Source of the DNA: a virus
Reading direction: 5' to 3' (one strand)
DNA length: 38,988 nucleotides
Virus record (IMG/VR): IMGVR_UViG_3300032249_000167
Coordinates: 1-38,988 of that record
The notes beneath the pieces were generated by a model, which saw only the letters and a list, made by a program, of their open reading frames with translations, was not told the DNA's origin and did no database searches. The stretch's first letter is position 1. Each line of letters starts with the position of its first letter. Both the position numbers and the translations under genes were made by a program. Below are positions 6,091 through 34,025 of this stretch, in pieces.

Positions 6091-6365
6091 CCGCAGTTAC
6101 AGTCCCATGCTCGAAGTGATTTATTGATTCTAGAGTTAGGATCTCTAGCAGTTTTAGCAGAGGTAAGTTTAGACTTCATACCGCACATACGGCTACAGAA
6201 AGACTTACGTCTTGCAGCAGACTTAGGTGACTTCTTAGCCTCAGCCTTCTTTACAGGTGGCTTAAGATTCATGCCTGCTGCTTTTGCAGAGGCTCTACCC
6301 TTGGCGTTTAATCCGCCTTTAGGATTTTTGCCCTCCTTGCGAGTCCACGCTGGTGTTGTCGCCAT
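6087..6365 (-). CDS. Basic DUF6321-type phage protein
   Basis: 92 residues when started at the ATG at 6363-6365, which has a strong Shine-Dalgarno (TTTGGAGGAAAG) eight bases upstream; an upstream in-frame ATG (6405-6407) would add 14 residues but lacks a better site. The signature PAWTRKEGKNPKGGLNAKGR followed by a KKSFCSRMCGMK...TARDPNSRINKSLRAW ending matches a small phage family I know as DUF6321. It has Cys residues near the middle and at the extreme C-terminus (CNCG). Function unknown. Its start lies inside the last 47 bases of the glycosyltransferase gene. Confidence 0.75.
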   Translation of the reverse strand: MATTPAWTRKEGKNPKGGLNAKGRASAKAAGMNLKPPVKKAEAKKSPKSAARRKSFCSRMCGMKSKLTSAKTARDPNSRINKSLRAWDCNCG

Positions 6366-7050
6366 TTTTCTTTCCTCCAAATATTGCATTGTAGTAGTGA
6401 ACATCAAATGAGAATCTCTTCATGTGTGGAGCCAAGGCTCCTGTATGACACCATAATGGAATCTTTACTTGGTGACATATAGCAAAGAAGTAGATATCTT
6501 CTCCTACGAAACTATCAGCCTTGCCCTGTTCAGCAAATAAGCGAATGTCTCCCTTATCATCTCTAATCTTCTTGACTACGCTTCTGTGCATCAAGATGAG
6601 TCCCATACCTGCTGCATCAACCTGAATTAGTTGATCTACTGGCATAGGGTGGATTCTCTTAGAGAACACTCTGCCATCTTCATCAGCAAACTTGAAGATA
6701 GTAGGCATTGGAATCATTAGAGGTTCCTCAGGATTATCTGAAGTAAAGTAAACTCCAGTAATCATAGGCTTTGACCATTTGTCTTTAGCATTCCAAAGTT
6801 TCATAAATATCTCTGGATTGATTACTACATCTGAGTCTACCCATAGTAGCCACTCTGATTTATTAGAATCATACCAATGGTTGATTAACCGATCACGCTG
6901 TCTAGCGATCTGATTACCACCACTGCGGATAGTTGATTCAAACTTAATACCTGATTGAAGTAACACATCGGTTACCCCAAGCATAAACATGCCGTCTACG
7001 TTGCCGTTATCACACCATGCTAGCGATACTGTTTCTTGCTTTTGCCTCAT
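6319..7050 (-). CDS. GT-A type glycosyltransferase
   Basis: 243 residues. The features of a nucleotide-sugar-dependent GT-A fold are visible: a helix with NQIARQRDRLINHW (46-59), a hydrophobic strand ending in the metal-binding DxD motif, WLLWVDSDVVINPE (D72/D74), and a downstream acidic GEDIYFF (183-189) where family members place the catalytic base. It is encoded among virion genes, so it could glycosylate capsid or fibre proteins, or modify host surface sugars. No transmembrane segment. Sugar donor and acceptor cannot be predicted. Confidence 0.75.
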   Translation of the reverse strand: MRQKQETVSLAWCDNGNVDGMFMLGVTDVLLQSGIKFESTIRSGGNQIARQRDRLINHWYDSNKSEWLLWVDSDVVINPEIFMKLWNAKDKWSKPMITGVYFTSDNPEEPLMIPMPTIFKFADEDGRVFSKRIHPMPVDQLIQVDAAGMGLILMHRSVVKKIRDDKGDIRLFAEQGKADSFVGEDIYFFAICHQVKIPLWCHTGALAPHMKRFSFDVHYYNAIFGGKKNGDNTSVDSQGGQKS

Positions 7051-8477: not shown

Positions 8478-9458
8478 TTAAGCCGCTGGACGAACTGCTG
8501 ATGCAGTCTGTACACGCCATAGAGCGTCTGGACGGTATAGGCTCCAACCTAATACTCCGTACCAGCCGATTGGGCGTAGACGCATCAACTTGTCGGTCAC
8601 TGGACCAATTACAGTGTGTGGCTCTTCAGCAACAGCCTCTGCAAGTGCTTGTTGACCCATGATAAATGTGTCGTACACACGAGTTTGTGTTGTGCCTGAA
8701 CCTGCGCCTGCTTGTGAGTTAGGTAGACGTGGAGACTCGATGAAAGCAACGCCTTCAAAAGTTCCAATCTCGCCTGCGTAAATGCCTGCTGGGTTTACGT
8801 ACTCTGCAGGTTGACGCCATGAAGCAGTTCCTGTTTCTGCACGAAGATCGTGTGAAACTTCTGGGTGGATGTATGAAGCAAATAGGCTTCCACGACGTGG
8901 AACTACGTTTGCTGCACGCATCTTTGCTACTACGTAGCGGATGTCTTTTGCCTTCAAGGTATCTGTTGCAGATACACCTGTTACGGCAGCAGTTGAGATT
9001 GCTCCAGCGATTTCGCGGATAACCTTTGTGCCAGCCCCAAGAACTCCCTTGATAACTTCATCAAGAGAATCGTTCAAGTTGTAAGCAACAATGTTAGCAA
9101 GTGCTGGCTCTACATCTGCAAGTGAGAATAAATCTAACTTACGTGTTGAGATAATTGAGTTACCGTACTCGTTTAGAGTTACAGCAACACTTGTTGTAGC
9201 AGGTACTGCTACTGCATCTACGTCAACTGTTTCAGTTAGTGTAGATGTCTTTACTGCCAAATCGTTGTAGATCTGGAATAGCACGCTTGAACCAGCGTGT
9301 GTTTGTGATACGGGCTTCTTATCAGCAACTTGACGGAATGATGGTACGGAACGAAGAGCAAACTCTACGAGACGATCATACGCCTGTGTTACAAGGTTAG
9401 CACCGACCACTGTGCCTGATTGCCCTGCGGGCAATGCAGCAGCGGTAAATAATGACAT
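8478..9458 (-). CDS. Major capsid protein, HK97-fold (N4-gp56-like)
   Basis: 326 residues, ATG behind AAAGGATATGACTAA. The beta-rich segment TVDVDAVAVPATTSVAVTLNEYGN followed by SIISTRKLDLFSLADVEPALAN is the hallmark of N4-gp56-type major capsid proteins. The later VVPRRGSLFASYIHPEVSHDLRAE and FEGVAFIESPRLPN segments belong to the P- and A-domains. It follows a scaffold gene, and no separate N-terminal cleavage site is obvious. Expected to form the icosahedral shell. The family name is my recognition by eye; the capsid role is strongly supported by position. Confidence 0.9.
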   Translation of the reverse strand: MSLFTAAALPAGQSGTVVGANLVTQAYDRLVEFALRSVPSFRQVADKKPVSQTHAGSSVLFQIYNDLAVKTSTLTETVDVDAVAVPATTSVAVTLNEYGNSIISTRKLDLFSLADVEPALANIVAYNLNDSLDEVIKGVLGAGTKVIREIAGAISTAAVTGVSATDTLKAKDIRYVVAKMRAANVVPRRGSLFASYIHPEVSHDLRAETGTASWRQPAEYVNPAGIYAGEIGTFEGVAFIESPRLPNSQAGAGSGTTQTRVYDTFIMGQQALAEAVAEEPHTVIGPVTDKLMRLRPIGWYGVLGWSLYRPDALWRVQTASAVRPAA

Positions 9459-9490: not shown

Positions 9491-9976
9491 CTACGATTGT
9501 GAACCGTAGATTAGGTTTAGAATATCTTCGGCAGATTGAGCAGATTGGATTTTAATACCCATGTCCTCAGCCTTGTCGGGGGATAAAGCCCCTGTTGTTA
9601 CATTGTCCATTTGACGAATAGACGCTACATCTCGAGAATCTACTTCTTTCTTAGGTTGTACTTGAACACCGAATATTTCAGCGTTCTGTTCCAACCAAGA
9701 TGAAATTGCTTCTTCCGAAGCATCTAGATCACTTGGAACGAAAGCGGCAACTTTTGGGTTTACGCCACGGGATGCAAATACATCCTTCAAAACCCGCTCT
9801 CTTTGGGATTTACTGAGTTCACCTAAAGTGGACTCCAGATCCTTGTTTCTCTTTTGCTCGACCTTTAAGGCCTTGCGTAGTTTCTTTACAAGGTCTGTAT
9901 CTGAATCAAATGTTGTCACATTGACATCATCATCTTCTTCATCTTCATCCCAGTAGTTATCGCGGTTGTTGCTCAT
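9491..9976 (-). CDS. Scaffolding protein
   Basis: 161 residues when started at the ATG at 9974-9976, preceded by GGGAG nine bases upstream; an in-frame upstream start would add 18 residues but has a poorer site. The N-terminus is intensely acidic (YWDEDEEDDDVNV), followed by a charged coiled coil (LVKKLRKALKVEQKRNKDLESTLGEL) and a helical C-terminus containing ISSWLEQNAEIFG. This architecture and the position immediately before the capsid gene are typical of phage scaffolds. It may be a substrate of the Ntn-hydrolase encoded upstream. Confidence 0.85.
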   Translation of the reverse strand: MSNNRDNYWDEDEEDDDVNVTTFDSDTDLVKKLRKALKVEQKRNKDLESTLGELSKSQRERVLKDVFASRGVNPKVAAFVPSDLDASEEAISSWLEQNAEIFGVQVQPKKEVDSRDVASIRQMDNVTTGALSPDKAEDMGIKIQSAQSAEDILNLIYGSQS

Positions 9977-10096
9977 AGCAACTTCTCCCTTGTTAGTAGT
10001 TGGCGTACGCCTCATTAAAGATAGGGGCATCTATAATGGCTCGTACTATCGGTTTTATACACCGCATGGACCGATGGCTCCATGTCGGGAATCTAG
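9977..10096 (-). other. Intergenic region with inverted repeats
   Basis: About 120 non-coding bases upstream of the scaffold gene. It holds two mutually exclusive inverted repeats: CATGGA/TCCATG (10065-10070 and 10079-10084) and ATCGGT/ACCGAT (10048-10053 and 10070-10075). An AT-rich TATAAA element on the minus strand could be a -10 box, but no convincing -35 is spaced correctly. A possible internal promoter or regulatory site for scaffold and capsid expression; not assigned further. Confidence 0.35.
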
Positions 10097-12475: not shown

Positions 12476-15400
12476 TTATTCCTCTACCTTCAATAGTGAA
12501 GCAAACACTCCATAATACATACGAGCAAATGCTGGGTTTTGAACTATTAACTGTGTTGCTAAGTTATTTAGTCTACCTGCTTGTTCTTTTGCATACCAAA
12601 ATCCACTACCAATATTAGGTGTGGCAGTAGTTCTAACCTCTTGTAAGTACTTCTCTACAGACTTATAAGCATCAAAGAACTGCTTTGTCTCATTGTAAAT
12701 AGGAGACTTTTGAAATGCAGGTTCTACTAATGCCTTTTCGACGTTAGCAACCTTTTCTCTAGCAGATCCAATATCTACTGACATAACAGGAGCAGAGCCA
12801 CCAAATTGATTATTTAGTGCCATTAGTTGCTCTGTATACCAGATATCGCTATATCCTAAATCGGCTTGTTGCTCAGAGATCTGAGACTTAGCCATTTGGT
12901 ATACAACGTTCTCAGCATACTGTTCTAACTCTTCTGGGCGTAGGTTACGACGACGGCCTGTAGCCTTTTGCCAGTTATAGTAAGCAGTTGCTGCTTCTCC
13001 ACCAGGGAAGAAGTAAGGGACAATATCGCCAGTCTTAGTAGCATACTTATCTGCAACATCTGGATTCTCATTTAAGAATGACCAAGCATCTCCAGTACCA
13101 CGAACTGATCTTGTAGAACCAGCAAGGATAACTAATAGATTCTTAATACCAAACATATCAGAGAACTCACCAATAGCACCAAAGTAATCACCAGGATACT
13201 TCTGTGCTATCTGATCGTATGCTGCATATAATGCTGTTTGAGTACGTAGTTTTCCATCTTTGTCTTTAGCAAATACTTCTTGAGAAGGAGTTGCTGGAGC
13301 AATAGACTGGAAGAATGCAGTCATCAAACCTGTCCAACGAGACAAGCCACGAGCATCATTAAATAATTGATTTCTTTCAGTATCGCTGGCTAATGGGTTA
13401 TCACCATAATCACCAGTAGATGCTAGGTATGAAGCCCAGTCTTTAACGCCACGCTCAACTTGAGTACCGTTGTTAATAGCAAGTAAGAATGATTTTTTTA
13501 ACCATGCTGGAAGAAGTAAATCTTGGATACCTTCAGGTTCACCAAATGGGAAAATGATCTGACGCATAGCATCCCATTCAGGACCAAATGCTTTAGACTT
13601 ACCACTTGCTGCATATACAATCTGCCCCATAGGTCCAATTCCTGGAATTGCTGGGTTGACTGCACCAAATACAAGGTTTAAAGATTGAACTGGAGCAGTA
13701 ATCTGTAATGCTTGGGCAGAGTCAATATTCTTGCCAGCCATAGCACCAATGATACTTCCTGCTAATGGATAACGGAAGCGAGTCTCACCAAATTCATCTT
13801 TATAAAAAAATCCTTGATTTTCATCATACTTAGTTCCAGTTAGATCATAGATAGCACTAGATCCAGATTGAGTCAAAGCATTGTAAGCACGGCCTAGTTT
13901 ATAGATCTGTACTGGATTCTCTTTAACTAATTGAGTCCATTTGTACATTGTATTAAACTGTGCCTGCGCAAATGGAAATATAATTCTCCAAGCATTTGCA
14001 TATTGGCGTTGTTTTGCAGCATCATAGAATAACTCTTTAGTATATTTAGATGCCTTCTTAGCAGCCATTGAATTCATAGTATCTAGATCGATACCATCAG
14101 TAACTGACTTACCCTTTTTACGGGCAGCAATCTCTTTGTTAATAGCACGCAAAGATGGATGACGACGCATACTTATATTAGCGCCATTAATAGTTAGTGG
14201 CGATAATGACTTTTTGGCATTTACCAAAAGCGCATCTAAAGCATCATCATTAATCATGCCTACATAACGGCCTACATGGTCCCAGTATGACATACGAAAC
14301 TCAGGGGCAAAGTTAACTACGTTTTCTAGTTTAGTAGCAAGGTCAAAGAACTTATCTACTGCTTCAAGTAAAAACTTTCCTTCGTATTGACCAAAGCGTT
14401 TATCACGAACATGGATAACTGTAGAATCAACCATGTCTTCTCTTGGGAAGTTACGACCTACTAGGGCTCTAAAAGCATTATCTTCGTCAGCAAAGTCATT
14501 AATGTTTCCTACTTTAGAATAACGAGGAATCTTAATCTTAACGCCGTCTTTGATTATTTCACCATCAGCCAGTAATTGTCTAATAGCAACTGATCCAGCA
14601 CCAGTTCCAGCCACATTATCTACATAACGGGCTACAGATCCAGTAGATGTTTTATCAAATAGGTAAGATTTAACATTCTCGGGAATAATATTTTCTGGAC
14701 TTAGGTTATACTTACCATTAACTCTCTTTTGATCTCTCAAAAAGATTTGAGCAAAATCTCCAGTTTCAACACCGTTTCTTCCACCATTTATGAGTGACTC
14801 TAAAACGCCTTTAAACTTATCGCCTTCTCCAGAAATTAATAGACGAACCATATCATCTTCTTGACCTGTGCCAGCATATCTAGCAACTAAAGGTATTAAA
14901 GCATCTGAGTGAGCACGAATTAAAGTATTAGATAGACCAACATGGTATTTAGTACTATCTGTTCCAATTGCTTCATATATCTTACCTACGAATGCAAAAC
15001 GTGGATCTCCAGAGTTATGGTTACGTGCCAAGAAATTAAAGTTTTCTTCAGCAAACTCTGATATTGCTTGGTTAAGTTCAGCATCTTTACTTACTAAAGA
15101 ATTACCTTTAACATCGTTATTATATTTAGCAATCTTAGATAGTAACCTCTGTGCTGCTTTACCATTTGGATTACCAGCAAGCATCGCTATATAATTAATA
15201 GGATGATTTAATAAAGACTCATGTCCTGAAAAGTATTGACGAAATTGCATTTCACCAATGTTGCGCATAATGTAAGCAATACGAAATGCTAATTGAGCAG
15301 TTCTCCAGCGATCACCAATCTCTGTAGAAAATACTTCTAAAGCCTGTTTAGCGCCATACTTTGTTTTACTATTAGTATATTTATTAATTAATTTAGAAAT

Positions 15401-18274
15401 ATCTTTAGTATCAGGTAAACGAATAACGTCATCTAAGAATTGATACTCATATATAGCCTGATCTGGAGCAAAATGATGTATTTCTCCATTTAACAAGTTT
15501 AAAGAAGGAACCTCGCCTTGTGCAAGACGTTCTGCTACATAGTTTTTAACTATAGCATTTTCACGACCAGTAATACGAAATGCATCTTTAACTGCTTCTT
15601 GAAGGGCAATATCTCCTGGTGCTAATCTTTGAGCAAGGGCTACTTGGGCCTTCTCAATTTCTTGAAATACAATACCAGAACGCTCACGTACATCAGTTGT
15701 AGATACAATACGATTGATTGTTGAATCAATTATATCATTAGGAATCTTAGCAGAAGACATCCAGTCTTCCATGCCATTAACTAATCTATCAACATCATCT
15801 AAAGGTAATACAACAGATTTAGTAAAATAACGACCAAAGTTCTTTTCAATCTTCTCCACATAGTTAATTGCTTTATATGCAACAGGAGGTACAGTTTTAA
15901 ATATTGGGTTCTTTGCTGCTAATGCAGCCTCTCCTCTAAGAGCAAGAGAACGATAAATCTGAGGATCAGATGTAGGTGCTGCTAAATGTTTTAGAAATAT
16001 AGAGATAACTTCATCAGAAGTTGTAGCGTCTACAAGTTCTTTGGTCATTTCAGCATCTAGTTTACGACCAAATAGGCGGTGTAAACGAGCAAAGTCTTTT
16101 TCATTTGCTACAATTTCAGCAATCTGATTAAAGCGTTTTCCTAGTAAGTAAGTAGCAGCCTTATCAACGTCGCCTTTTACAGCACCACCAAAGCCGTCTA
16201 CAAGACCAACTTCGCTTCTATAAAACTCTTTTAAGTATCCAGTATCAGCAATCTCTGTTTGAAGATCCATAAGTTTGGCAATACCAATGTTTTCAGGATC
16301 ATTCATTAACTGAACAACAAGGTCTGGATCTAATGCAGCATAATCACGCAAAATATCAATTTCTTTAATCTTACCATCAATACCTGCACGAGATGTTGCT
16401 GCTGAATCTAGGGCAGTTTTAGCCTCTAGGATCTCTTGTTGAGCACTTTTAACAGACTCAATTAACTTAGCACCTAGTTGAGTACCCATAGCAGCAGTAC
16501 CATTTAAGGATGTTAGAGTATCGCTAATGCCTAGTTGACGAGCACCAATCTTAGATGCGTTGGTTATTACTACTCCACCTGTTCCACCATGGATAGCACG
16601 GATATTCACAAATCCGTCATATTTCCATATTTCTTGAACAGCATCAGAGACAGTACTAATTAGATTCTCATCTTTAGTCTTAATAGCGTATGACATCAAG
16701 TCAGCAAGCGTTTGACTTCCATCACTAAATAATAGGTTATCTGCAGAACTTTGTAGGAGATTATACCCAGTATCATTTTTGTTGATATAATCATAGATTG
16801 CTTGCTTAGTATAATCTGGAGTTGCTGCATCATCAGCCTTGGCATATAACTTGCCAAAGAGTTGTTCACGACGATCAAACTCAGCGATTCTCTCAGTTAT
16901 AGGGGCATCAGTGTAGTTCTTTGTAACATCAAATAATTCTAATGGGTTATCTTTAGATACTGTGGCTACATATTCTCTTTCACCAAAAGCACCTAGTTTT
17001 AATTGTCCAGGAGAAGGCACTTCATCTAAGTAGATACCAGTAAATGCTTTGCCAACATTCTCATAATCAGCAGATAGTTGAGCAAGGTTGTCAATTACAC
17101 CTTCTGGTGTATTGTCGCCAATGCTCTTTAATACAAAGTCACCGATCTTGCCAGTTTCAATAGTGGCAACAACATCAGCATTACCTTCTACCTGATCTCC
17201 ACGCTTAATACCATAGTTTAATGCTTTCTCTAAACGAGTCTGTACAGCATTAGCCTTGGCTTGAGACTTCTTCTGAAGATTTTTTTCTGCCCTTAGGTAT
17301 GAATTCTCTACGTTACGGAGAACTTTCTTTTCTTCACCTGTAAATTGTTTTAGTTGAGTCTTTTCTTCTTTTGTTAAATTCTTAATATCGTCTATCTTTG
17401 CAAGACGCTTTGCTTCTTCTACTGCTTGAGCAGAGGCTTTAGCACCCTGTAATTGTTTTCCACCTTTAATAATATTAGTTATAGTGCCAGGTCCAAACCA
17501 CGTTGTAGGATCTGCACCTATTGCTAATGTAGCATCAACAATACCAGACATAACACGATATGGGGCAGTATTGGGATCCATGCCTAGAACATTTAGGCTA
17601 CCACGACCAATAGTAAATGATTTACCATTAACACGACCATAAGCAGACATAGCCTTAGCCTGTCCTGCTCCTACCTTGCTTTCAGGTGATACGAAAAATC
17701 CACTACCAGTATCTACTGGACCATTTCCTGTAACAAGTCCACCAGTTGCCCGCAATAATTGACCTAGGTTAGTTGTTTCTCCAACTAATTGAGCAGGGTT
17801 AAAAGCGGTAAGCACACTAGTTACTGGTTTTTCGCCAGTAGATGCAGCGTATAGGTTTCTGCCTACAGTAGAAATATATTGGTAAGGTGCTTGTAGTGTA
17901 GCAAATGCAGCACGAGTAGTACCTTTTAGAATACTGTAAATGCCTTCACGAAAACCTTTATCTTTGTCTGCTTGACTTTTCAGGTTATCAACGTTTGTTA
18001 AGTCTTGCATCAATTGAGCAAAGCCATCAGCAGATGCTAACTTATCAACACCTTGGCTATTAGCATTTAAGCCTGCTTTGGCAGCACTAAGTAAATAATC
18101 TTTGGATTGATTAGGAAACTTTTTAAATAAAGATTCATAATTTAGTACTATTTGAGGATCAAGGCCAGAGATCTCTTTATTAACAAGGGTGTTCATATTT
18201 GCTTGGACAACATCCTGGTCAAAAAGGCTTGTATACTTGTACTTACTCCAATAGGATTGTAATGGATCAGCCAT
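12476..18274 (-). CDS. Giant virion protein (1932 aa), putative internal/ejection protein
   Basis: This single gene takes about 15 percent of the window. It is largely helical, with a charged coiled-coil region around 275-345 (LTKEEKTQLKQFTGEEKKVLRNVENSYLRAEKNLQKKSQ), several hydrophobic Gly-rich segments, and a C-terminal part carrying AFRIAYIMRNIGEMQFRQYF and WRIIFPFAQAQFNTMYKWTQ. I recognise the latter pattern from very large internal virion proteins of podo-like environmental phages. No lysozyme, ADP-ribosyltransferase, protease or RNA polymerase motif is visible. Encoded between the Ntn-hydrolase and scaffold, an unusual place for a tape measure, so an ejected core or internal protein is favoured. 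Start overlaps the upstream stop (TAATG). Confidence 0.55.
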   Translation of the reverse strand: MADPLQSYWSKYKYTSLFDQDVVQANMNTLVNKEISGLDPQIVLNYESLFKKFPNQSKDYLLSAAKAGLNANSQGVDKLASADGFAQLMQDLTNVDNLKSQADKDKGFREGIYSILKGTTRAAFATLQAPYQYISTVGRNLYAASTGEKPVTSVLTAFNPAQLVGETTNLGQLLRATGGLVTGNGPVDTGSGFFVSPESKVGAGQAKAMSAYGRVNGKSFTIGRGSLNVLGMDPNTAPYRVMSGIVDATLAIGADPTTWFGPGTITNIIKGGKQLQGAKASAQAVEEAKRLAKIDDIKNLTKEEKTQLKQFTGEEKKVLRNVENSYLRAEKNLQKKSQAKANAVQTRLEKALNYGIKRGDQVEGNADVVATIETGKIGDFVLKSIGDNTPEGVIDNLAQLSADYENVGKAFTGIYLDEVPSPGQLKLGAFGEREYVATVSKDNPLELFDVTKNYTDAPITERIAEFDRREQLFGKLYAKADDAATPDYTKQAIYDYINKNDTGYNLLQSSADNLLFSDGSQTLADLMSYAIKTKDENLISTVSDAVQEIWKYDGFVNIRAIHGGTGGVVITNASKIGARQLGISDTLTSLNGTAAMGTQLGAKLIESVKSAQQEILEAKTALDSAATSRAGIDGKIKEIDILRDYAALDPDLVVQLMNDPENIGIAKLMDLQTEIADTGYLKEFYRSEVGLVDGFGGAVKGDVDKAATYLLGKRFNQIAEIVANEKDFARLHRLFGRKLDAEMTKELVDATTSDEVISIFLKHLAAPTSDPQIYRSLALRGEAALAAKNPIFKTVPPVAYKAINYVEKIEKNFGRYFTKSVVLPLDDVDRLVNGMEDWMSSAKIPNDIIDSTINRIVSTTDVRERSGIVFQEIEKAQVALAQRLAPGDIALQEAVKDAFRITGRENAIVKNYVAERLAQGEVPSLNLLNGEIHHFAPDQAIYEYQFLDDVIRLPDTKDISKLINKYTNSKTKYGAKQALEVFSTEIGDRWRTAQLAFRIAYIMRNIGEMQFRQYFSGHESLLNHPINYIAMLAGNPNGKAAQRLLSKIAKYNNDVKGNSLVSKDAELNQAISEFAEENFNFLARNHNSGDPRFAFVGKIYEAIGTDSTKYHVGLSNTLIRAHSDALIPLVARYAGTGQEDDMVRLLISGEGDKFKGVLESLINGGRNGVETGDFAQIFLRDQKRVNGKYNLSPENIIPENVKSYLFDKTSTGSVARYVDNVAGTGAGSVAIRQLLADGEIIKDGVKIKIPRYSKVGNINDFADEDNAFRALVGRNFPREDMVDSTVIHVRDKRFGQYEGKFLLEAVDKFFDLATKLENVVNFAPEFRMSYWDHVGRYVGMINDDALDALLVNAKKSLSPLTINGANISMRRHPSLRAINKEIAARKKGKSVTDGIDLDTMNSMAAKKASKYTKELFYDAAKQRQYANAWRIIFPFAQAQFNTMYKWTQLVKENPVQIYKLGRAYNALTQSGSSAIYDLTGTKYDENQGFFYKDEFGETRFRYPLAGSIIGAMAGKNIDSAQALQITAPVQSLNLVFGAVNPAIPGIGPMGQIVYAASGKSKAFGPEWDAMRQIIFPFGEPEGIQDLLLPAWLKKSFLLAINNGTQVERGVKDWASYLASTGDYGDNPLASDTERNQLFNDARGLSRWTGLMTAFFQSIAPATPSQEVFAKDKDGKLRTQTALYAAYDQIAQKYPGDYFGAIGEFSDMFGIKNLLVILAGSTRSVRGTGDAWSFLNENPDVADKYATKTGDIVPYFFPGGEAATAYYNWQKATGRRRNLRPEELEQYAENVVYQMAKSQISEQQADLGYSDIWYTEQLMALNNQFGGSAPVMSVDIGSAREKVANVEKALVEPAFQKSPIYNETKQFFDAYKSVEKYLQEVRTTATPNIGSGFWYAKEQAGRLNNLATQLIVQNPAFARMYYGVFASLLKVEE

Positions 18275-18693
18275 TAACGACCTTCTTGAAGGAATGCTTC
18301 TAGTAATCTACGATTCTGTGGAGTTGGATTAATTGCAAACATTGCTCTTGCTAAAATAGCAGCGTTATCTGGAGAATCTACTGGTTGAGATAAAATTTCT
18401 GGGCCTGCGCCAGGTGTATTACCTGCAGCACCTTGAGTAATAGGAACTTCTCCACCTTGCATTTCAGTAATCTTAGGCCTAGGTGCAGGAGTTACCGCTG
18501 GAGTAGAACTAACAATAGTACTTGGTTGTACAGTAGATGCACCAGATGCAATATCTTGTAATTGTGCAGCCTGTCCATATGCTCCACCTGTAGCATTTTG
18601 GATTTTTGCTTCTCTTTGAATCTTCTTTACACGAGATAAGTCTTCACGTTTTGCAAATTTACCTGGACCAGATACTGGTGAGATCATTGACAT
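18274..18693 (-). CDS. Small virion-module protein, unknown function
   Basis: 139 residues. The opening MISPVSGPGKFAKREDLSRVKKIQREAK is a pattern I have seen in actinophage genes near the portal; residues 45-110 are Pro/Thr/Ser/Ala-rich and probably disordered; the C-terminus (ILARAMFAINPTPQNRRLLEAFLQEGR) is a short helical hairpin. It lies directly after the proteasome-like gene and before the giant protein, with a TAATG overlap into the latter. Possibly an assembly factor or protease substrate. Confidence 0.55.
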   Translation of the reverse strand: MSMISPVSGPGKFAKREDLSRVKKIQREAKIQNATGGAYGQAAQLQDIASGASTVQPSTIVSSTPAVTPAPRPKITEMQGGEVPITQGAAGNTPGAGPEILSQPVDSPDNAAILARAMFAINPTPQNRRLLEAFLQEGR

Positions 18694-18704: not shown

Positions 18705-19274
18705 TTATCTAGCGAACTGTTTTTTAATAATGACTGGGCCGTTTGAATAAACATCCCACTTAATTGAAGTATTAATAGATTTTTCTATAATTTCTGCTGC
18801 TTGTTCCGCTGTTCTGGCCTTATCTGCGCCAAGAACTTCCATAGCACCTAGTGCTGTGTGTCCTCCGCTACCTGAATAGTAGATTTTAGTAGAGGTTCTA
18901 TCCCAAGAATAATCAGAAAAAATTGGATATATGACACCATTGGCTACAACAATGAACTCTGAATCATGTGAAGCAGCCTGTCCATCTTCTTTCATGTCAT
19001 AACCAGCATCTAAGAATAGTTTTCTCATAGAAGGTATGAACCTTGTAGTCATAAACTTATCTAAATCTTCATTTAATTTAAACCTAGGTGGCTTCCAACC
19101 AAATTGTAGAAGGTTAGAACCACGAGAAGCACCTGCTCCTGCTATAAGATAACTACCATTTTGAATTATCTTAGGAGTAATCATAGTCATTGGCTTACCA
19201 TGATCGTCAGTTGATCGTGAATCGCAACCAACAACAGCCCAACCATTACCTTGAATTGCTGCTAGTGTTGTCAT
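18705..19274 (-). CDS. Proteasome beta / HslV-like Ntn-hydrolase, putative prohead protease
   Basis: 189 residues. The sequence begins Met-Thr-Thr, so removal of Met exposes a Thr nucleophile as in HslV and bacterial proteasome beta subunits. Counting that Thr as 1, an Asp falls exactly at 17 (VVGCDSR) and a Lys at 34 (TPKII), matching the catalytic Thr1/Asp17/Lys33 set with one insertion. A GAGASRG loop (46-52) and a YSGSGGHTALGAMEVL segment (133-148) match the conserved glycine and serine regions, and the TAEQAAEIIEKS...YSNGPV ending matches the HslV C-terminal layout. Encoded between portal and scaffold, where phages normally place a maturation protease. A peptidase role in capsid maturation is inference; an alternative is a non-virion regulatory protease. 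Confidence 0.8.
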   Translation of the reverse strand: MTTLAAIQGNGWAVVGCDSRSTDDHGKPMTMITPKIIQNGSYLIAGAGASRGSNLLQFGWKPPRFKLNEDLDKFMTTRFIPSMRKLFLDAGYDMKEDGQAASHDSEFIVVANGVIYPIFSDYSWDRTSTKIYYSGSGGHTALGAMEVLGADKARTAEQAAEIIEKSINTSIKWDVYSNGPVIIKKQFAR

Positions 19275-19288
19275 TGTCCCCTACTTAG

Positions 19289-21052
19289 TTATTGTTGTCC
19301 TTGTAATCCTGCCAATATACTCATTAAATCTTGTCCACCTTGTTGTGGGGTTCCACCAGAAGCGGATCCAGGAGTGGCTGGGGACAGGGGAGCCTGCTCT
19401 GCTGGGGCTTGTGAACCTGGTGGAACCGTTCCTGCCTGCGCTTGAGCCATCGCTTCTTCCTGCGGAGTAGGTGCAGGTGGCGTAAATACGGCTAGCGCAG
19501 CATTTTCTATGCTTTCCCCGTTTCGTGTGCGTGTGATAACATCAGCGATATTCTTAATCATCGCAGATGGATCTTGACCTTGTGCTGCCATAGCAGGAAT
19601 TGCTTGCGCAGTTGATGTTATAGCGGCGGTCAAGTTAGCACGCATCTTTTCAATTTCAATTCGTTGTCCTTCTAGAGTTACGTTTACGCTCCATGGAAGT
19701 TCACGACGTATGAAGTCTTTAGATACTAGATCAGCACCAAGTGCTTGTAGTGAGAAGATTAGGGCTCGTGATGGGTCAAGTCCTGCCATCAATCCGTAAC
19801 GAACTTCAACAGAAGTGTCGTTCTTGATGTCTTTGCTAGGTGTGTACTTTAACTCGTACGGAGTACCCTGAGCGACGCCTCTAACCGATTTCTCTACATC
19901 AAACACCACCTGGTCAACTTCAAAGCAAGCCTGAACGACCTCTTCAAAAGTTTCTGCCAGAATGGTTTGACCAGCCTTGATTTGTGAATCAAAGGCACCT
20001 AGTAGAGCCTGTACACCTTGGCCAGTAATAACACTAGCGTTGATGTTTCCAGTTCTACCTTCAGGATAACGAGCACCCAATCGCATTTCGCTTTGAAGTG
20101 CTGCTTGCTCCTGAAAGGCTGCTGCAGGGATGTCAAGTTTGACACGACCAACTGCGTTAGGTTGGTTAGTACGAATAATCGCATCAGGTCCCATAGGCAA
20201 ATCTACAACATCAGTAGGAACAACCATAGGAGCCTGAATAGACTTCTCTGCTGCTTCCATACTTAGATTAGCAAAACGCGCTCTTGCTAATTGTACATAC
20301 AATACATCATCAAATTGTCCACGAGGTTCTTCATCGATACCAGGTTTACGAGCAACGTATACCAGCATCTTGCCTAGTGGATTCTTTGCTGCATTTAATA
20401 CTAGGTTACCACGGCTAGGTACATAAAGAACGATATTGTTCTTATCTGTATAGCGGATAAGTTCTACAACTGCATTAGTATTCTGGTTGTATCCAAGGTT
20501 TCCAAGGATAGCACCAGCATACTCAGGATAATCTGTGGCTAGTTCGCCAATTGTCTTCATGTATCGCTTTGCGTATGATACGCAGCGACCAAATCTATCA
20601 AACTCTGGATATGCTCCAATAGGATCTTCTACACGGATGCGTGGCATTCTTGATTCAAAATCTAATTCAATATGGATAGGTAAGAAGCCATATGTAAAGT
20701 ACCAGTCAGCACCCCAGTACATCTGTGATTGTAGGCGTGAATTGTAAATATAGTTATTGGCAATCATGCCACGCTTGTCAGCAAATGCTCTAGCACGATC
20801 TGAGGATGTGTTAGTTGTCGAACAGTTAAAGGATGGTAGTGGAGCCAGTACCTCTGCAAGGTCACGGGCTGCAACATCTACGAAGTTGGCAACCATCGCT
20901 GAGTTCATTCCTTCTGGGAACAAGTCAGGGAATACCTCAGTCATCTTACCTTTACGTACAGCAAGTATGTCTGCCATACGGGCATCACGCTCTGCGTGTC
21001 GTTGTTTTAGATTCTCGACACGTTGAGAGATTAACTGAATATCAATTGCCAT
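19289..21052 (-). CDS. Portal protein
   Basis: 587 residues. It starts seven bases after the terL stop. Features typical of portals: an N-terminal helical region (VENLKQRHAERDARMADIL), a 'MVANFVDVAARDLAEVLAPLPSF' segment, 'YIYNSRLQSQMYWGADWYFTYGFLP', and a central long helix at 300-370 around INASVITGQGVQALLGAFDSQ. The C-terminal 60 residues are Pro/Gln/Gly-rich and disordered. It forms the dodecameric channel through which TerL loads DNA. The order TerL-portal-protease-scaffold-capsid supports the call. Confidence 0.9.
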   Translation of the reverse strand: MAIDIQLISQRVENLKQRHAERDARMADILAVRKGKMTEVFPDLFPEGMNSAMVANFVDVAARDLAEVLAPLPSFNCSTTNTSSDRARAFADKRGMIANNYIYNSRLQSQMYWGADWYFTYGFLPIHIELDFESRMPRIRVEDPIGAYPEFDRFGRCVSYAKRYMKTIGELATDYPEYAGAILGNLGYNQNTNAVVELIRYTDKNNIVLYVPSRGNLVLNAAKNPLGKMLVYVARKPGIDEEPRGQFDDVLYVQLARARFANLSMEAAEKSIQAPMVVPTDVVDLPMGPDAIIRTNQPNAVGRVKLDIPAAAFQEQAALQSEMRLGARYPEGRTGNINASVITGQGVQALLGAFDSQIKAGQTILAETFEEVVQACFEVDQVVFDVEKSVRGVAQGTPYELKYTPSKDIKNDTSVEVRYGLMAGLDPSRALIFSLQALGADLVSKDFIRRELPWSVNVTLEGQRIEIEKMRANLTAAITSTAQAIPAMAAQGQDPSAMIKNIADVITRTRNGESIENAALAVFTPPAPTPQEEAMAQAQAGTVPPGSQAPAEQAPLSPATPGSASGGTPQQGGQDLMSILAGLQGQQ

Positions 21053-24518: not shown

Positions 24519-24649
24519 GTGCCGAGTTAGAGATCAAGTGCTGGTGTGGAGTAATTACTTACTCAGACGCTGATCGCATAGCACACGATTGCAACTACTA
24601 TCCACACGACATCATCGAGCGTGATGAGTTATGGGAGAAACAATTATGA
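24515..24649 (+). CDS. Small Cys/His-containing protein, GTG start
   Basis: 44 residues: MSAELEIKCWCGVITYSDAD, then RIAHDCNYYPHDIIERDELWEKQL. The Cys-x-Cys pair and the later His-Asp-Cys could bind a zinc ion. The GTG start (24515-24517) overlaps the preceding TGA, and its own TGA (24647-24649) overlaps the next ATG as ATGA. Both overlaps fit real translation in a tightly coupled operon. Function unknown. Confidence 0.55.
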   Translation: MSAELEIKCWCGVITYSDADRIAHDCNYYPHDIIERDELWEKQL

Positions 24650-26169
24650 GTACAGGCTTACAGGGTACATTCGTAGATTACTATGCGAGTGTACCCACAA
24701 GCGATTGGTTCATGCTACTGAACCGAGATGATCTAGACGCACTTCTCGCCGTACGCATTACAACGGCAGGTTATGGCGTCTGCGATAACTGTGGCAAAGG
24801 CTCTGCTCTGTACGACACACAGACAACCACACGCCAAAGGACATACCTATGCGATCCTTGCACACGCAAGGCTTTGCGCTTTGATACAGACATCGAGAGC
24901 GCATACTCGAAGGTATTAAACCTCACAGATAGCGTTTCTACTGCGATAGACACGCTGTTTCCTACTGAGCATGTACCCAAGCACGAGGATACACGCCATG
25001 TATGCCTGTGTCATCGTATGATACTTCAAACAGGCGATTATCATGTTCCGTTTGAGTACATGACCAATACTGTTGAGGTTATGTACGATGACGAGAAGCG
25101 TACAGTACACCGCACATGTTCATATACATGTGGTGAGTGTGCAACTCCGCACTATGGTAATCAACACGCATACTTTGACGGCTCTCCTACATGTGCAACA
25201 TGTTCGGATATGCTCAATGAGTCAGATGATTACTCGATGTGTGAGTATTGCAACGAGATGTTCAGTGATCTGCATTACTCAGATGCTCGTGATCGCAGCC
25301 TGTGTGGTACATGCTATGATGAGAGTTGGGAATGTGGTGAGTGCTACAATGATCGCACAGAGGGTGATGACCACGAGTGCTATCGCAACGGCTTGATCTA
25401 CGATTACTCATACAAGCCTAGCCCAGAGTTCTACGGGAAGGCTGAGTATTACTTCGGCTTCGAGTTAGAGGTCGAGGATAACAGAGGTCAGGGCGTGGAT
25501 GCTGGCGCTCAAGCGGTGATAGATCAACTCGGAGATCGTGTGTACTGCAAGCATGACGGCTCGCTCAATGACGGCTTCGAGATAGTTTCTCACCCACACT
25601 CATTCGATCAACTCGAGAACCTTAACTGGGATTGGCTAACACGCTTACGCCAACTTGGTTTCCGTTCATGGGATACAAGCACATGTGGATTACACATTCA
25701 CATATCACGCACAGCCTTCACAAAGAATGGCAAGCGTGATGAGGGTCATGAGTTGCGGTTTCAGAAACTCATATACGACAACTCACGCATGGTCGAAGGC
25801 ATAGCAGGTCGCTCAAGTTCTTACGCAAGATTCAAGGACAAGGGCTATCTCGTACCCAAGATCAAGCATGGACAACAGGCAGATAGGTATGAGGCTGTTA
25901 ACTCATACAATGATGCCACGCTAGAGGTTCGTGTGTTCAGAGGATCACTTCGCAAGCAGAGGATTTTATCTGCTGTTGAGTTCCTACATGCAGCCACAGA
26001 ATACACACGAGACATGAGAATAAACCCAAAGGACAAGCAACTATCGTGGTTTAGGTTCATGGCTTATGTGCTAGACAATCAGGACAAGTACGGAAACTTC
26101 ACGCAAGTTGCGATGAAGGTGCTAGAAAATACAAGCGTGGGATCTAATTCCACAGATGAGGAAAACTAA
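24646..26169 (+). CDS. Cysteine-rich phage amidoligase (COOH-NH2 ligase)
   Basis: 507 residues from the ATG at 24646, which has GGGAG eight bases upstream and an ATGA overlap; an ATG 15 bases earlier is less well placed. Residues 46-240 carry CxxC pairs (CDNCG, CDPC, CGEC, CATC, CEYC, CGTC, CGEC), probably several zinc modules. Residues 268-440 show the amidoligase signature of the phage-type glutamine-synthetase-like fold: FGFELEVE (270-277), KHDGSL (302-307), GFEIVSHP (310-317), CGLHIHIS (347-354), RYEAVN (414-419) and TLEVRVFRGS (425-434). These bind ATP and metal and join a carboxylate to an amine. The neighbouring amidotransferase suggests glutamine-derived ammonia as one substrate; the acceptor is unknown. 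Confidence 0.85.
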   Translation: MSTGLQGTFVDYYASVPTSDWFMLLNRDDLDALLAVRITTAGYGVCDNCGKGSALYDTQTTTRQRTYLCDPCTRKALRFDTDIESAYSKVLNLTDSVSTAIDTLFPTEHVPKHEDTRHVCLCHRMILQTGDYHVPFEYMTNTVEVMYDDEKRTVHRTCSYTCGECATPHYGNQHAYFDGSPTCATCSDMLNESDDYSMCEYCNEMFSDLHYSDARDRSLCGTCYDESWECGECYNDRTEGDDHECYRNGLIYDYSYKPSPEFYGKAEYYFGFELEVEDNRGQGVDAGAQAVIDQLGDRVYCKHDGSLNDGFEIVSHPHSFDQLENLNWDWLTRLRQLGFRSWDTSTCGLHIHISRTAFTKNGKRDEGHELRFQKLIYDNSRMVEGIAGRSSSYARFKDKGYLVPKIKHGQQADRYEAVNSYNDATLEVRVFRGSLRKQRILSAVEFLHAATEYTRDMRINPKDKQLSWFRFMAYVLDNQDKYGNFTQVAMKVLENTSVGSNSTDEEN

Positions 26170-26170
26170 C

Positions 26171-27001
26171 ATGTGTATGTTATGCGTAGTACCACCCAAT
26201 GTATTACCTGATCGTGAGAAGTTAACTTACTCAGCGATCAACAACCCAGACGGCTTCGGGTTTGCTATTGTCGTGAGCAAAGAGAAGCGCATCATCACCT
26301 ATCACACAATGAACGCTGATGATGCGGTCAATGAGTTCCTCAAGATGCGTGCTGAGTATCCGTCTGACTATGCACTATGGCACGCACGACTAGCCACGCA
26401 TGGTGCAACTAACTTAGACAACTGCCACCCGTTCAAGGTAGCAGACAGCATGACTGTGCTTGCACACAACGGCATACTTCCGATAGATATTCCAACGGGA
26501 GATTGGCGTAGTGATACACGCATATTCGCAGAGGAAGTTCTCGCCAAGATAGGCGGTGTATCTGCTCTCGATAATCCACACATCTACAACATACTCGAGG
26601 AATACACATCAGGCTCTAAGGTGTGTGTGCTTACTGTTGATCCCAAAGCAGAGTATCAGATGTACCTGCTACACGACAACAAAGGTACGACAGACGAGAG
26701 TGGTGTGTGGTGGTCTAACGACAGTTGCTCGCCTTCATACGGCATCTACAACAAGTGGTATAGCAAGAGTGAGTTAGGCTCGTTCTACACCACAGCAGAA
26801 AACACATACGATAACGAGGAATGGCCATGTGTAGGATGCCAAACGCACTTAGTCGAGGATGATCTCATCATCCACAACTATGTGTGCCAAGTGTGTGATA
26901 CCTGCCAATGGTGCGACATGGATACTGTAAACTGTATGTGCTACAAGAAGCCTACATACGAGCAATCACACAAAGCATACTCAACAGCATGGGAGTTCTA
27001 A
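26171..27001 (+). CDS. Class II glutamine amidotransferase with C-terminal Cys cluster
   Basis: 276 residues. The ATG at 26171 is favoured because Cys then becomes residue 2, the N-terminal nucleophile exposed after Met removal in this Ntn-hydrolase family; GAGG lies about nine bases upstream. Other family marks are NPDGFGFA (25-32), WHARLATHG (70-78), CHPF (85-88), AHNG (98-101) and RSDT (113-116). The C-terminal 50 residues contain CVGC, CQVC, CQWC and a final CMC, like the cysteine modules of the amidoligase, which suggests a shared metal-binding or docking part. It should release ammonia from glutamine for the adjacent ligase. The amidoligase gene ends one base upstream. Confidence 0.85.
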   Translation: MCMLCVVPPNVLPDREKLTYSAINNPDGFGFAIVVSKEKRIITYHTMNADDAVNEFLKMRAEYPSDYALWHARLATHGATNLDNCHPFKVADSMTVLAHNGILPIDIPTGDWRSDTRIFAEEVLAKIGGVSALDNPHIYNILEEYTSGSKVCVLTVDPKAEYQMYLLHDNKGTTDESGVWWSNDSCSPSYGIYNKWYSKSELGSFYTTAENTYDNEEWPCVGCQTHLVEDDLIIHNYVCQVCDTCQWCDMDTVNCMCYKKPTYEQSHKAYSTAWEF

Positions 27002-27309: not shown

Positions 27310-27634
27310 ACGCAAGTGTGAGTGGGATGATCTCGTGTGGAAAACCACGCAGAGTGGTAATAAAACCACACGAGTTGATCTACTCGCAGGTGAGTTCATA
27401 CACCTAGAGGAAGGTTGGGAGATAGACGGGCCTGTGTCTGTTTATCTCACATACCTACCAAGCAAGGACATCACTCGTGTTAGGTATAAGTCGTTGCCAC
27501 ACAGTATGTTTGATTTAGATAATCCGCTTGAGTATCCATGCGCTATGTGTGGTGCTCAGCGTGGTGTACAATGTATAGGCGATAACACAGAGTGTGCGTA
27601 TCGTGTGTTCTTTATGAAAGGTGGTCTGTTATGA
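27290..27634 (+). CDS. Protein with C-terminal zinc-finger-type motif
   Basis: 114 residues from the ATG at 27290, with GGAG seven bases upstream; a start further up would lack a ribosome-binding site and overlap more of the previous gene. The N-terminal 70 residues are beta-type (DDLVWKTTQSGNKTTRVDLL). The end reads PCAMCGAQRGVQC-x7-CAYR, the CxxCGA..G..C....C..R zinc finger that I know from many actinophage proteins. It overlaps the WhiB-like gene by an ATGA. Likely a nucleic-acid-associated protein. Confidence 0.6.
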   Translation: MLKMMRERKCEWDDLVWKTTQSGNKTTRVDLLAGEFIHLEEGWEIDGPVSVYLTYLPSKDITRVRYKSLPHSMFDLDNPLEYPCAMCGAQRGVQCIGDNTECAYRVFFMKGGLL

Positions 27635-28020
27635 CTATGCCTAACTTCGTGAACGAAGCAAGTTGCGCATACGATCCAAGTCCTGACGATTGGTTTCCCG
27701 AGATGAGTGCAGTTATCGGCGTGTACCCACGCTGGAAACTTAGGGAACAATTCTCACGCACACCTAGCGCCTTGCGTGCTAGGACTGTGTGTATGAGTTG
27801 TTCTGCGTATGATGAATGTTATGAGTATGCTTTATCATACAAGGACTTAGACGGGATATGGGCTAACACAGATCGTTTTGAGCGTGTGGATATACAGCGT
27901 GCTATGGGATTAGACCCACGCAAGTTGCCACCTGCTTACATCAACGAGATACCGCAATTCGTAGGGCAAGGCAATTCATGGCTACCAGTAGAAAGCGAGT
28001 GGGATGATGTACGAGAATAG
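27631..28020 (+). CDS. WhiB-like Fe-S regulator
   Basis: 129 residues. The four-cysteine pattern of WhiB proteins is present: C12, then C54-x2-C57-x5-C63 (RARTVCMSCSAYDECYEYAL), followed by the DGIWANT turn (74-80), a variant of the G[V/I]W tryptophan loop that contacts the principal sigma factor. WhiB proteins are confined to actinobacteria and their phages, so this is the strongest host indicator here. It likely binds a 4Fe-4S cluster and alters host or phage transcription. The basic DNA-binding tail typical of cellular WhiB proteins is weak or absent; the C-terminus is acidic. Confidence 0.85.
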   Translation: MTMPNFVNEASCAYDPSPDDWFPEMSAVIGVYPRWKLREQFSRTPSALRARTVCMSCSAYDECYEYALSYKDLDGIWANTDRFERVDIQRAMGLDPRKLPPAYINEIPQFVGQGNSWLPVESEWDDVRE

Positions 28021-32605: not shown

Positions 32606-33028
32606 TTAATACCAACCCTTTCGCAAGTGGTGTTGAAGCGCCAAAGTAGGCGTTTTATACCGTTTTTTGATGTATTTTATACCCAAGTCAACTTGCTGAG
32701 TTGGGGTGGTATCTTCTGACATACGTAGAATTTGGGGTATTCCGTATGCAGTAGACTTTGGATTATCTGCTGTGTAATCCCAGCGAGATTCCTTAGACCA
32801 GAGTGTTAATAAAGATTTCCACTCATGATCGTTCCAACCTTGTAACTTTACTTTCATCTTAGCGTAACGCTTAGCGAGTATTTTACTTTGACTAATTGTG
32901 AGTTCTTGTTCTTTGCATTCTGGTTTCGTAGGGGTTAGGACCATCATAGTCGCAACCGCACTTTGAGGCCAGAAACCCGCAAAGACCACAAAACACATCA
33001 ATATGTATTTGAGGTTGTTTTTCTTCAT
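32606..33028 (-). CDS. Secreted lytic transglycosylase-like protein
   Basis: 140 residues from the ATG at 33026-33028, with an excellent AGAGGAGAG site. Residues 1-26 are a signal peptide: a KKNN start, a hydrophobic LKYILMCFVVFAGFW core and an AVA end. The catalytic region WKSLLTLWSKESRWDYTADNP has the transglycosylase Glu (E80) followed by AYGIPQI, as in SLT domains; the end reads YIKKRYKTPTLALQHHLRKGWY. It should cleave peptidoglycan glycan strands outside the membrane. Its place in the replication operon, apart from the lysis genes, is unusual. Confidence 0.78.
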   Translation of the reverse strand: MKKNNLKYILMCFVVFAGFWPQSAVATMMVLTPTKPECKEQELTISQSKILAKRYAKMKVKLQGWNDHEWKSLLTLWSKESRWDYTADNPKSTAYGIPQILRMSEDTTPTQQVDLGIKYIKKRYKTPTLALQHHLRKGWY

Positions 33029-33240
33029 AGTCTCTCCTCTGTTGGGGCTGTTGCCTTTGTCCCACAGACAGCACACTCCATATCGATAAAGTATGAACTT
33101 ATTGTTTCACTATCGTCATCCCATTCGACTAATAGTTTCCATATATAAGAACCGCAAGGACATACTTTGGTAGGTTCACCACGTATATCCATTGATTCTT
33201 TATAGTCTGGTTTTAATTCCCAGATATCCTTGGCGCTCAT
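33025..33240 (-). CDS. Zinc-ribbon protein (71 aa)
   Basis: 71 residues: CPCGSYIWKLLVEWDDDSET, then SYFIDMECAVCGTKATAPTE. CxCG and CAVCG form the two knuckles of a zinc ribbon about 28 residues apart. It is coupled to the DnaB-like gene upstream (ATGA) and to the transglycosylase downstream. It may act in the replication complex; no enzymatic residues. Confidence 0.6.
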   Translation of the reverse strand: MSAKDIWELKPDYKESMDIRGEPTKVCPCGSYIWKLLVEWDDDSETISSYFIDMECAVCGTKATAPTEERL

Positions 33241-34025
33241 AATCTTTCAGGTATATCGGAAACTTCCATCACTTCAGGATTAAATTGTAGCCAGAACGAT
33301 GTATCGCCAGTTGGATCTGCTTTGCCGTATCTGTTTTTAACAGGTGCGACAGCAATATATCCAGGAGCGTTACTTCCGACAGTTAAGATCAAGGCTGGTA
33401 GTTGTGCTACCATTCCTTGTAATGCTGATCGTGGCTGACAAGGATTGCCAGGATACGATTCCTTCGTATGGTGAAGGAGAAGAACTGCAGCATTAGTATC
33501 TCTTGCAAGATATTTCAGTTCTTTAATTGTAGAACGCATCGCTGCGAACTCTTCGCCACTATCATTAGATATATCAATTAGATTATCTATAACGATTAAA
33601 GTTGGCGGACAACCCCATAGTTCTTCAAAAGCAGATACTTCCATATCTAAATCAGCCAATGTTGGCGCTGAGTCAAATGACCAGAAGATATGCCCTGAAT
33701 GTTCATTGATAGTCTTACGAGACTCCTCAACTGAATCTATGAGCATCTGTTCAGCCATTGATTGTGGCTGTCCAGAAATCATTGATAGCAAACGCATAGC
33801 CATAGTGTGGGCATTGGTGTCTGCACTTATGTAAAGAGTAGGAACTTTAGTTCTTAAAGCAACTGCAAGGGCAAGTGTTGATTTACCTGCCCCTGGAGTT
33901 CCTGCAATCATAGACACTTCTGCCCGTCGTATGACGATTTTATTTACGTCAAAGGTACGGAATACAGTTGGTAATGGTTCACCACCGATATCCTTACTAC
34001 CTACGGCACGGGCTAAGGTTCTCAT
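33237..34025 (-). CDS. DnaB/RecA-like replicative ATPase
   Basis: 262 residues. Walker A AGTPGAGKST (41-50), Walker B TLIVIDN (142-148), a VLLLHHTKE segment (181-189) matching the SF4 helicase sensor region, and VKNRYGKADPTG, a DnaB-type end motif. At 262 residues it is only the ATPase domain; the N-terminal helical domain of DnaB is missing, as in many phage helicases. It probably unwinds DNA at the fork with the primase encoded downstream. RadA/KaiC-like function is the alternative. Confidence 0.82.
   Translation of the reverse strand: MRTLARAVGSKDIGGEPLPTVFRTFDVNKIVIRRAEVSMIAGTPGAGKSTLALAVALRTKVPTLYISADTNAHTMAMRLLSMISGQPQSMAEQMLIDSVEESRKTINEHSGHIFWSFDSAPTLADLDMEVSAFEELWGCPPTLIVIDNLIDISNDSGEEFAAMRSTIKELKYLARDTNAAVLLLHHTKESYPGNPCQPRSALQGMVAQLPALILTVGSNAPGYIAVAPVKNRYGKADPTGDTSFWLQFNPEVMEVSDIPERL

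Follow-up and report, generated by a model that had tools for sequence, protein, structure and literature searches.

What does a phage gain from a proteasome-like peptidase encoded directly behind its portal gene, and is this enzyme the protease that matures the phage head? The question is raised by a 38,988-base viral record of IMG/VR, here called the window, in which an open reading frame for a predicted Ntn hydrolase is the feature under study. A preliminary description of the locus gave the correct coordinates for this gene and omitted its strand, which is minus; the plus strand of the same interval contains many stops. Along the minus strand the order is terminase large subunit (TerL), portal, Ntn, a 139-aa gene, the genes for proteins of 1932, 381 and 410 aa, scaffold, major capsid protein (MCP) and SU10-type adaptor (Table 1). 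The Ntn gene had been placed between portal and scaffold, which is accurate for the portal, its immediate neighbour, and loose for the scaffold, whose gene lies about 8.7 kb away. Ntn starts only 14 bp beyond the portal stop and ends 11 bp before the next gene, and a promoter and terminator scan of the Ntn region gave no excess over shuffled sequences.

Table 1. Features of the window and of the slot that follows the portal gene in related phages.
Feature	Position	Strand	Remarks
Ntn hydrolase gene, proteasome/HslV-like (group I)	18705..19274	minus	189 aa; sequence, profiles, AF2 model
Ribosome-binding site AGGGG	19278..19282	minus	sequence; just 5' of the Ntn ATG
Gly48	residue 48 of Ntn protein		oxyanion-type residue
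GSGG segment	residues 135-138 of Ntn protein
Portal protein (PHROG 104)	19289..21052	minus	upstream neighbour of Ntn
139-aa gene (PHROG 8200)	18274..18693	minus	next gene downstream; conserved right edge of the variable slot
1932-aa protein (weak PHROG 10618)	12476..18274	minus	kept with and without Ntn
Head scaffolding-like protein (PHROG 7813/648)	9491..10030	minus
Major capsid protein (Phage_capsid_3, PHROG 1357)	8478..9458	minus
Helicase and 71-aa gene	33237-34025 and 33025-33240	minus	directly abutting
S1, 72-87 aa protein with acidic DEDED-like tail	slot after portal		L177-L224 and L311 2529-2765 (S1 and S2 together)
S2, 78-aa protein, unrelated to S1	slot after portal		loci as given for S1

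The fold can be addressed from several sides. A single-sequence phmmer search of the PDB with the Ntn protein returned only noise, and a profile of relatives was therefore needed. In the PDB the profile, built from 18 Ntn relatives, finds HslV at E 1.5e-10 and BPH at E 6.6e-9, both at full length, and its alignment sets Thr2 on Thr1 of HslV and Lys35 on the catalytic lysine. PHROG 1040, the "peptidase HslV family", matches the protein with an E-value of 1.9e-20. The Pfam Proteasome profile (PF00227) gives it 22.2 bits, just below the cut-off of 22.4, and matches 27 of the 29 family members (best 6.3e-9). The AlphaFold2 (AF2) monomer model (pLDDT 88, pTM 0.86) has the alpha-beta-beta-alpha arrangement of Ntn hydrolases. 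BPH (5ovt) is the closest structure, with a Z-score of 18.6 and an rmsd of 2.6 Å over 172 residues, and residue 2 of the model superposes on residue 1 of the 5ovt chain, the catalytic Thr1. Proteasome beta subunits follow with Z-scores of 17-18 over residues 2-189.

Thr1, Asp17 and Lys33 form the catalytic set of HslV and of proteasome beta subunits. The translated frame contains all the marks read earlier from the DNA: the MTT start, the GAGASRG and GSGG motifs, and Asp18 and Lys35, which are positions 17 and 34 when counted from Thr2. Thr2, Asp18 and Lys35 are invariant across 93 aligned relatives and also occur in A3; they are likewise present in every member of a diverse set of 27 sequences (26 phage homologs and HslV, down to about 30% identity), 25 of which also have Gly48. 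The gene evolves under purifying selection, with a dN/dS of 0.06-0.13 between close relatives. Profile matches, model, invariant triad and dN/dS together rule out a chance resemblance to Ntn hydrolases, and the first three bear out the HslV/proteasome-type reading of the preliminary description. By predicted fold class and triad, the protein belongs with the group I proteasome-like Ntn hydrolases, in the neighbourhood of HslV, BPH, AAH, CPH and PPH.

Where in this neighbourhood does it stand? With HslV (ClpQ) it shares the fold, the catalytic residues and an MTT start without a long propeptide. It does not reach the level of an HslV equivalog, scoring 16.7 bits against a cut-off of 157.75 for TIGR03692 and 17.2 against 137 for NF003964, and no HslU accompanies it. 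The AAA_2 profile (Pfam) has no match in the window or in ten related genomes; by this profile the window lacks an HslU-like unfoldase, as had been stated from the first, and an HslUV system can be set aside. BPH, a bacterial (beta-proteobacterial) protein represented by 5ovs, 5ovt and 5ovu, is the best structural and full-length profile match; it is only 18% identical to the window protein, and its rings have been shown experimentally. Citromicrobium phage RXM has been reported to encode a "BPH", with no functional data (PMC8953757).

Closer at hand are proteins already known from phages. The HslV-like proteins of PHROG 1040 in Actinomycetia phage DSL-LC01, Psychrobacter phage D'Alembert and Arthrobacter phage Pitbull carry the same Thr2, Asp18 and Lys35; these and the window protein are alike in being phage-encoded with no dedicated unfoldase found in the window. 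They differ in setting, the gene lying among non-structural genes in the three named phages and after the portal in the window. PPH, AAH and CPH are proteasome homologs of group I that occur in phages and in bacteria; neither a function nor an informative genomic context has been assigned to them (Fuchs, Alva and Lupas, 2021, PMC8665760). The window protein resembles them in its compact group I type without propeptide, in the Thr/Asp/Lys triad, in its occurrence in Caudoviricetes and in the absence of a co-encoded AAA+ partner. PPH has about 140 residues and lacks helix H2 (PMC8665760), whereas the window protein has 189 and its model places helices at residues 51-58 and 71-89 in the H1/H2 region, the second being equated with H2 by position only; the modelled protein thus looks like a full group I architecture. 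Scans of bacterial genome contigs gave no confirmed relative, and plasmid matches, mostly rhizobial and unannotated, are 24-30% identical.

The window has a GC content of 42% and a gene for a WhiB-family transcription factor (27592-28020, plus strand), and the nearest named phages by capsid are Streptomyces phages of the Beephvirinae (MCP 55% identical). An actinobacterial host is inferred from these three features, and the habitat would be freshwater, judging by the named relative DSL-LC01, which comes from a lake sample. Several other genes deserve mention. A putative Amidoligase_2 gene (24631-26169, plus strand) overlaps a class II glutamine amidotransferase-like gene (GATase_4, 26156-27001), whose product belongs to another Ntn-hydrolase family; the two are possibly an amide-bond-forming pair. 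A glycosyltransferase-like gene (PHROG 34859; 6319-7050, minus strand) lies within the structural region. The 1932-aa protein, possibly an internal or ejection protein, diverges fast (39-93% identity) although gene order, portal and capsid are conserved.

Is the Ntn gene a fixed part of the structural operon? About 65 IMG/VR loci fetched through the Ntn protein have the gene directly after the portal. These loci were preselected for Ntn, and relatives were therefore fetched additionally through the portal and through the capsid protein. Where the portal is at least 84% identical to that of the window, Ntn is present wherever the slot is readable. About three dozen loci with 75-82% portal identity have no Ntn in the slot, with the order of the 139-aa and 1932-aa genes behind it unchanged. 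The slot then holds one of two small proteins, S1 or S2, or nothing (L218). Five slot states (NtnA, NtnB, S1, S2 and none) are distributed over a portal tree of 58 deduplicated rows and require eight changes. Mutual exclusion of Ntn and the small slot proteins is not strict, for in one locus, ct2KA10, a weak S2-like match (27%, E 4e-4) comes after Ntn.

The exchange reaches into the immediate relatives of the window. Of the ten rows in its own portal clade, three carry the window type, NtnA, and seven carry NtnB, which starts MTAIVGIQG and is only 31-37% identical to NtnA within the clade. The NtnB relatives are otherwise very close to the window (TerL 92%, portal 89%, scaffold 85-88% and MCP 93-95% identical, against 33-36% for Ntn), and where the portal gene stops, nucleotide identity to them drops from about 90% to some 50-60%. 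Conversely, in phages with a portal identity of only 54%, Ntn is 66% identical to the window type. Taken from these sequence comparisons, the A/B pattern is best read as replacement by recombination and not as divergence in place.

The gene is also found at other sites. In one relative of 39.9 kb (G016, IMG/VR 3300034418_005051; TerL 81%, portal 77% and MCP 79% identical to the window), S2 occupies the portal slot, and an Ntn gene of 186 aa, about 32% identical and with a complete triad, is found in the replication module, flanked by a 71-aa gene and a helicase 85% identical to that of the window. A second relative (G038, MCP 81%) has Ntn in the same place. Since helicase and 71-aa gene abut in the window, the window represents the empty state of this alternative site. 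A more distant phage (G029, portal 51%) has a more divergent Ntn (E 2.9e-10) adjoining its primase gene; upstream of both, split ORFs resembling a C5 cytosine methyltransferase were noted by eye (L321, 592-1765). Two further loci, L048 and L069, encode type A Ntn proteins (62% and 53% identical) and show no portal match in the vicinity. In L069 the gene is flanked, as judged by eye, by a transglycosylase-like gene on one side and HNH/SSB-like genes on the other, at a position upstream of the terminase. In L048 (6001-8203), also by eye, it stands beside dual-specificity phosphatase-like and histone-deacetylase/AcuC-like ORFs, a possible host-takeover cluster.

In some phages the gene was not found at all. 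A profile search did not find Ntn in the complete Beephvirinae genomes, nor in several relatives of 39-45 kb whose portal was found. Absence is firmest for the complete Beephvirinae, because IMG/VR contigs that lack terminal repeats may be incomplete.

How do these observations bear on head maturation? The preliminary description had assigned the gene to a prohead-protease slot and proposed that an Ntn-fold enzyme replaces the usual serine-type protease and cuts scaffold or capsid. In most carriers the gene does lie directly 3' of the portal, within the late structural operon, and the window encodes no Peptidase_S78 or ClpP-type protease. The likeness to caudoviral prohead proteases (Peptidase_S78/U35, ClpP-like S14/S49, S77/T4 gp21) is one of gene order only, downstream of the portal; fold and nucleophile differ, and the Ntn slot is exchangeable, being filled in close relatives by a divergent Ntn, by unrelated small proteins or by nothing. 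Co-inheritance with scaffold and MCP fails, since in relatives with capsid proteins 79-82% identical Ntn is missing from the slot or located in the replication module. Complete phages with homologous capsids have no Ntn, and other phages carry the same family among early genes. The distance to the scaffold gene points the same way. From residue 1 onwards, MCP and scaffold align collinearly across NtnA, NtnB and Ntn-minus relatives, and no N-terminal extension or propeptide is confined to Ntn carriers, which argues against a maturation protease. The Peptidase_S78 and ClpP-type (S14) profiles have no match in 11 genomes of carriers and non-carriers, so that among those families non-carriers have no substitute for a required protease. 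Phage P22 assembles on a scaffold and needs no protease, and the unchanged head proteins fit a protease-free, scaffold-type assembly of this kind. No report of an Ntn-fold capsid protease was found in the literature. Given the exchangeable slot, the other positions of the gene and the constancy of the head proteins, a prohead protease is highly improbable here.

It is also conceivable that the peptidase serves the virion in another way, modifying or protecting a single component (the portal, the 139-aa or the 1932-aa protein) or being packaged and injected. Its stable place between the portal and the 139-aa and 1932-aa genes in the NtnA clades would agree with this; however, all three partners are conserved where the slot holds S1, S2 or nothing, and Ntn also occurs far from their genes, which makes such a role unlikely. 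A non-degradative enzyme, either ligase- or transpeptidase-like (compare connectase) or a specific processor of one host or phage protein, is about equally doubtful. The missing unfoldase would suit it, and proteasome homologs do include the ligase connectase (PMC8665760), but the window protein shows no sign of a connectase-type insertion, its model follows the secondary structure of BPH and the proteasome over residues 2-189, and its profile matches are to HslV and BPH. That the protein is an inactive relic, or puts the fold to structural use, is hardly credible: nothing speaks for it directly beyond the protein's own Pfam score just under the cut-off, and a triad invariant to about 30% identity and a dN/dS of about 0.1 contradict it.

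The best reading is a catalytically competent accessory protease of the threonine type that probably acts in trans during infection and is not an obligate head-maturation protease. The gene is exchanged at its slot and occupies alternative positions, and divergent-allele swaps combined with early or late placement are the behaviour of a trans-acting accessory factor. Going by the alignment with HslV, Met1 would be removed, so that Thr2 becomes the N-terminal nucleophile of a putative active site that also comprises Asp18 and Lys35. HslV and BPH form small self-compartmentalised rings, and the phage protein probably does the same. Inside the infected cell this ring would cleave unfolded proteins or peptides, acting with no unfoldase or borrowing an AAA+ partner from the host. 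Its role may lie in proteostasis, host takeover or counter-defence, and the data favour none of the three. A place in a known defence system was considered and rejected: among 18 Ntn members PADLOC gave a single weak match, which was to a restriction enzyme model.

Why, then, does the gene so often follow the portal? Recombination would have put it there and exchanged it there, while other phages carry it at other genomic sites. Most NtnA carriers have it directly after the portal, and this position is stable within large clades. The stability could reflect co-regulation with the late genes. It could also be that Ntn gained a head-related role in the sublineage of the window alone. A broader and more tentative idea is that unfoldase-independent proteasome-like proteases of phages are exchangeable weapons of actinophages for host takeover or counter-defence. 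Repeated allele swaps and moves between early and late positions would be expected if Ntn targets variable host proteins or defence factors; the idea is nonetheless offered as a possibility with chances well below even.

The family itself is known, from PHROG 1040 and from the phage proteasome homologs of Fuchs et al. (2021). An Ntn-fold capsid-maturation protease would have been a surprise, and the evidence gives it no support; what is informative is the pattern of allele exchange in an actinophage lineage. Fuchs et al. found no Actinobacteria-specific phage with AAH (PMC8665760), so it is useful to add a lineage of actinophages in which such genes are common. Within one abundant group of freshwater actinophages, Ntn sits in the late slot, is swapped between alleles, lies in the replication module or is missing in sister phages, which argues against a role in head maturation. 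The same group supplies matched phage pairs (with Ntn, without it, with allele A and with allele B) and thereby a testing ground for the function of viral proteasome-like proteases.
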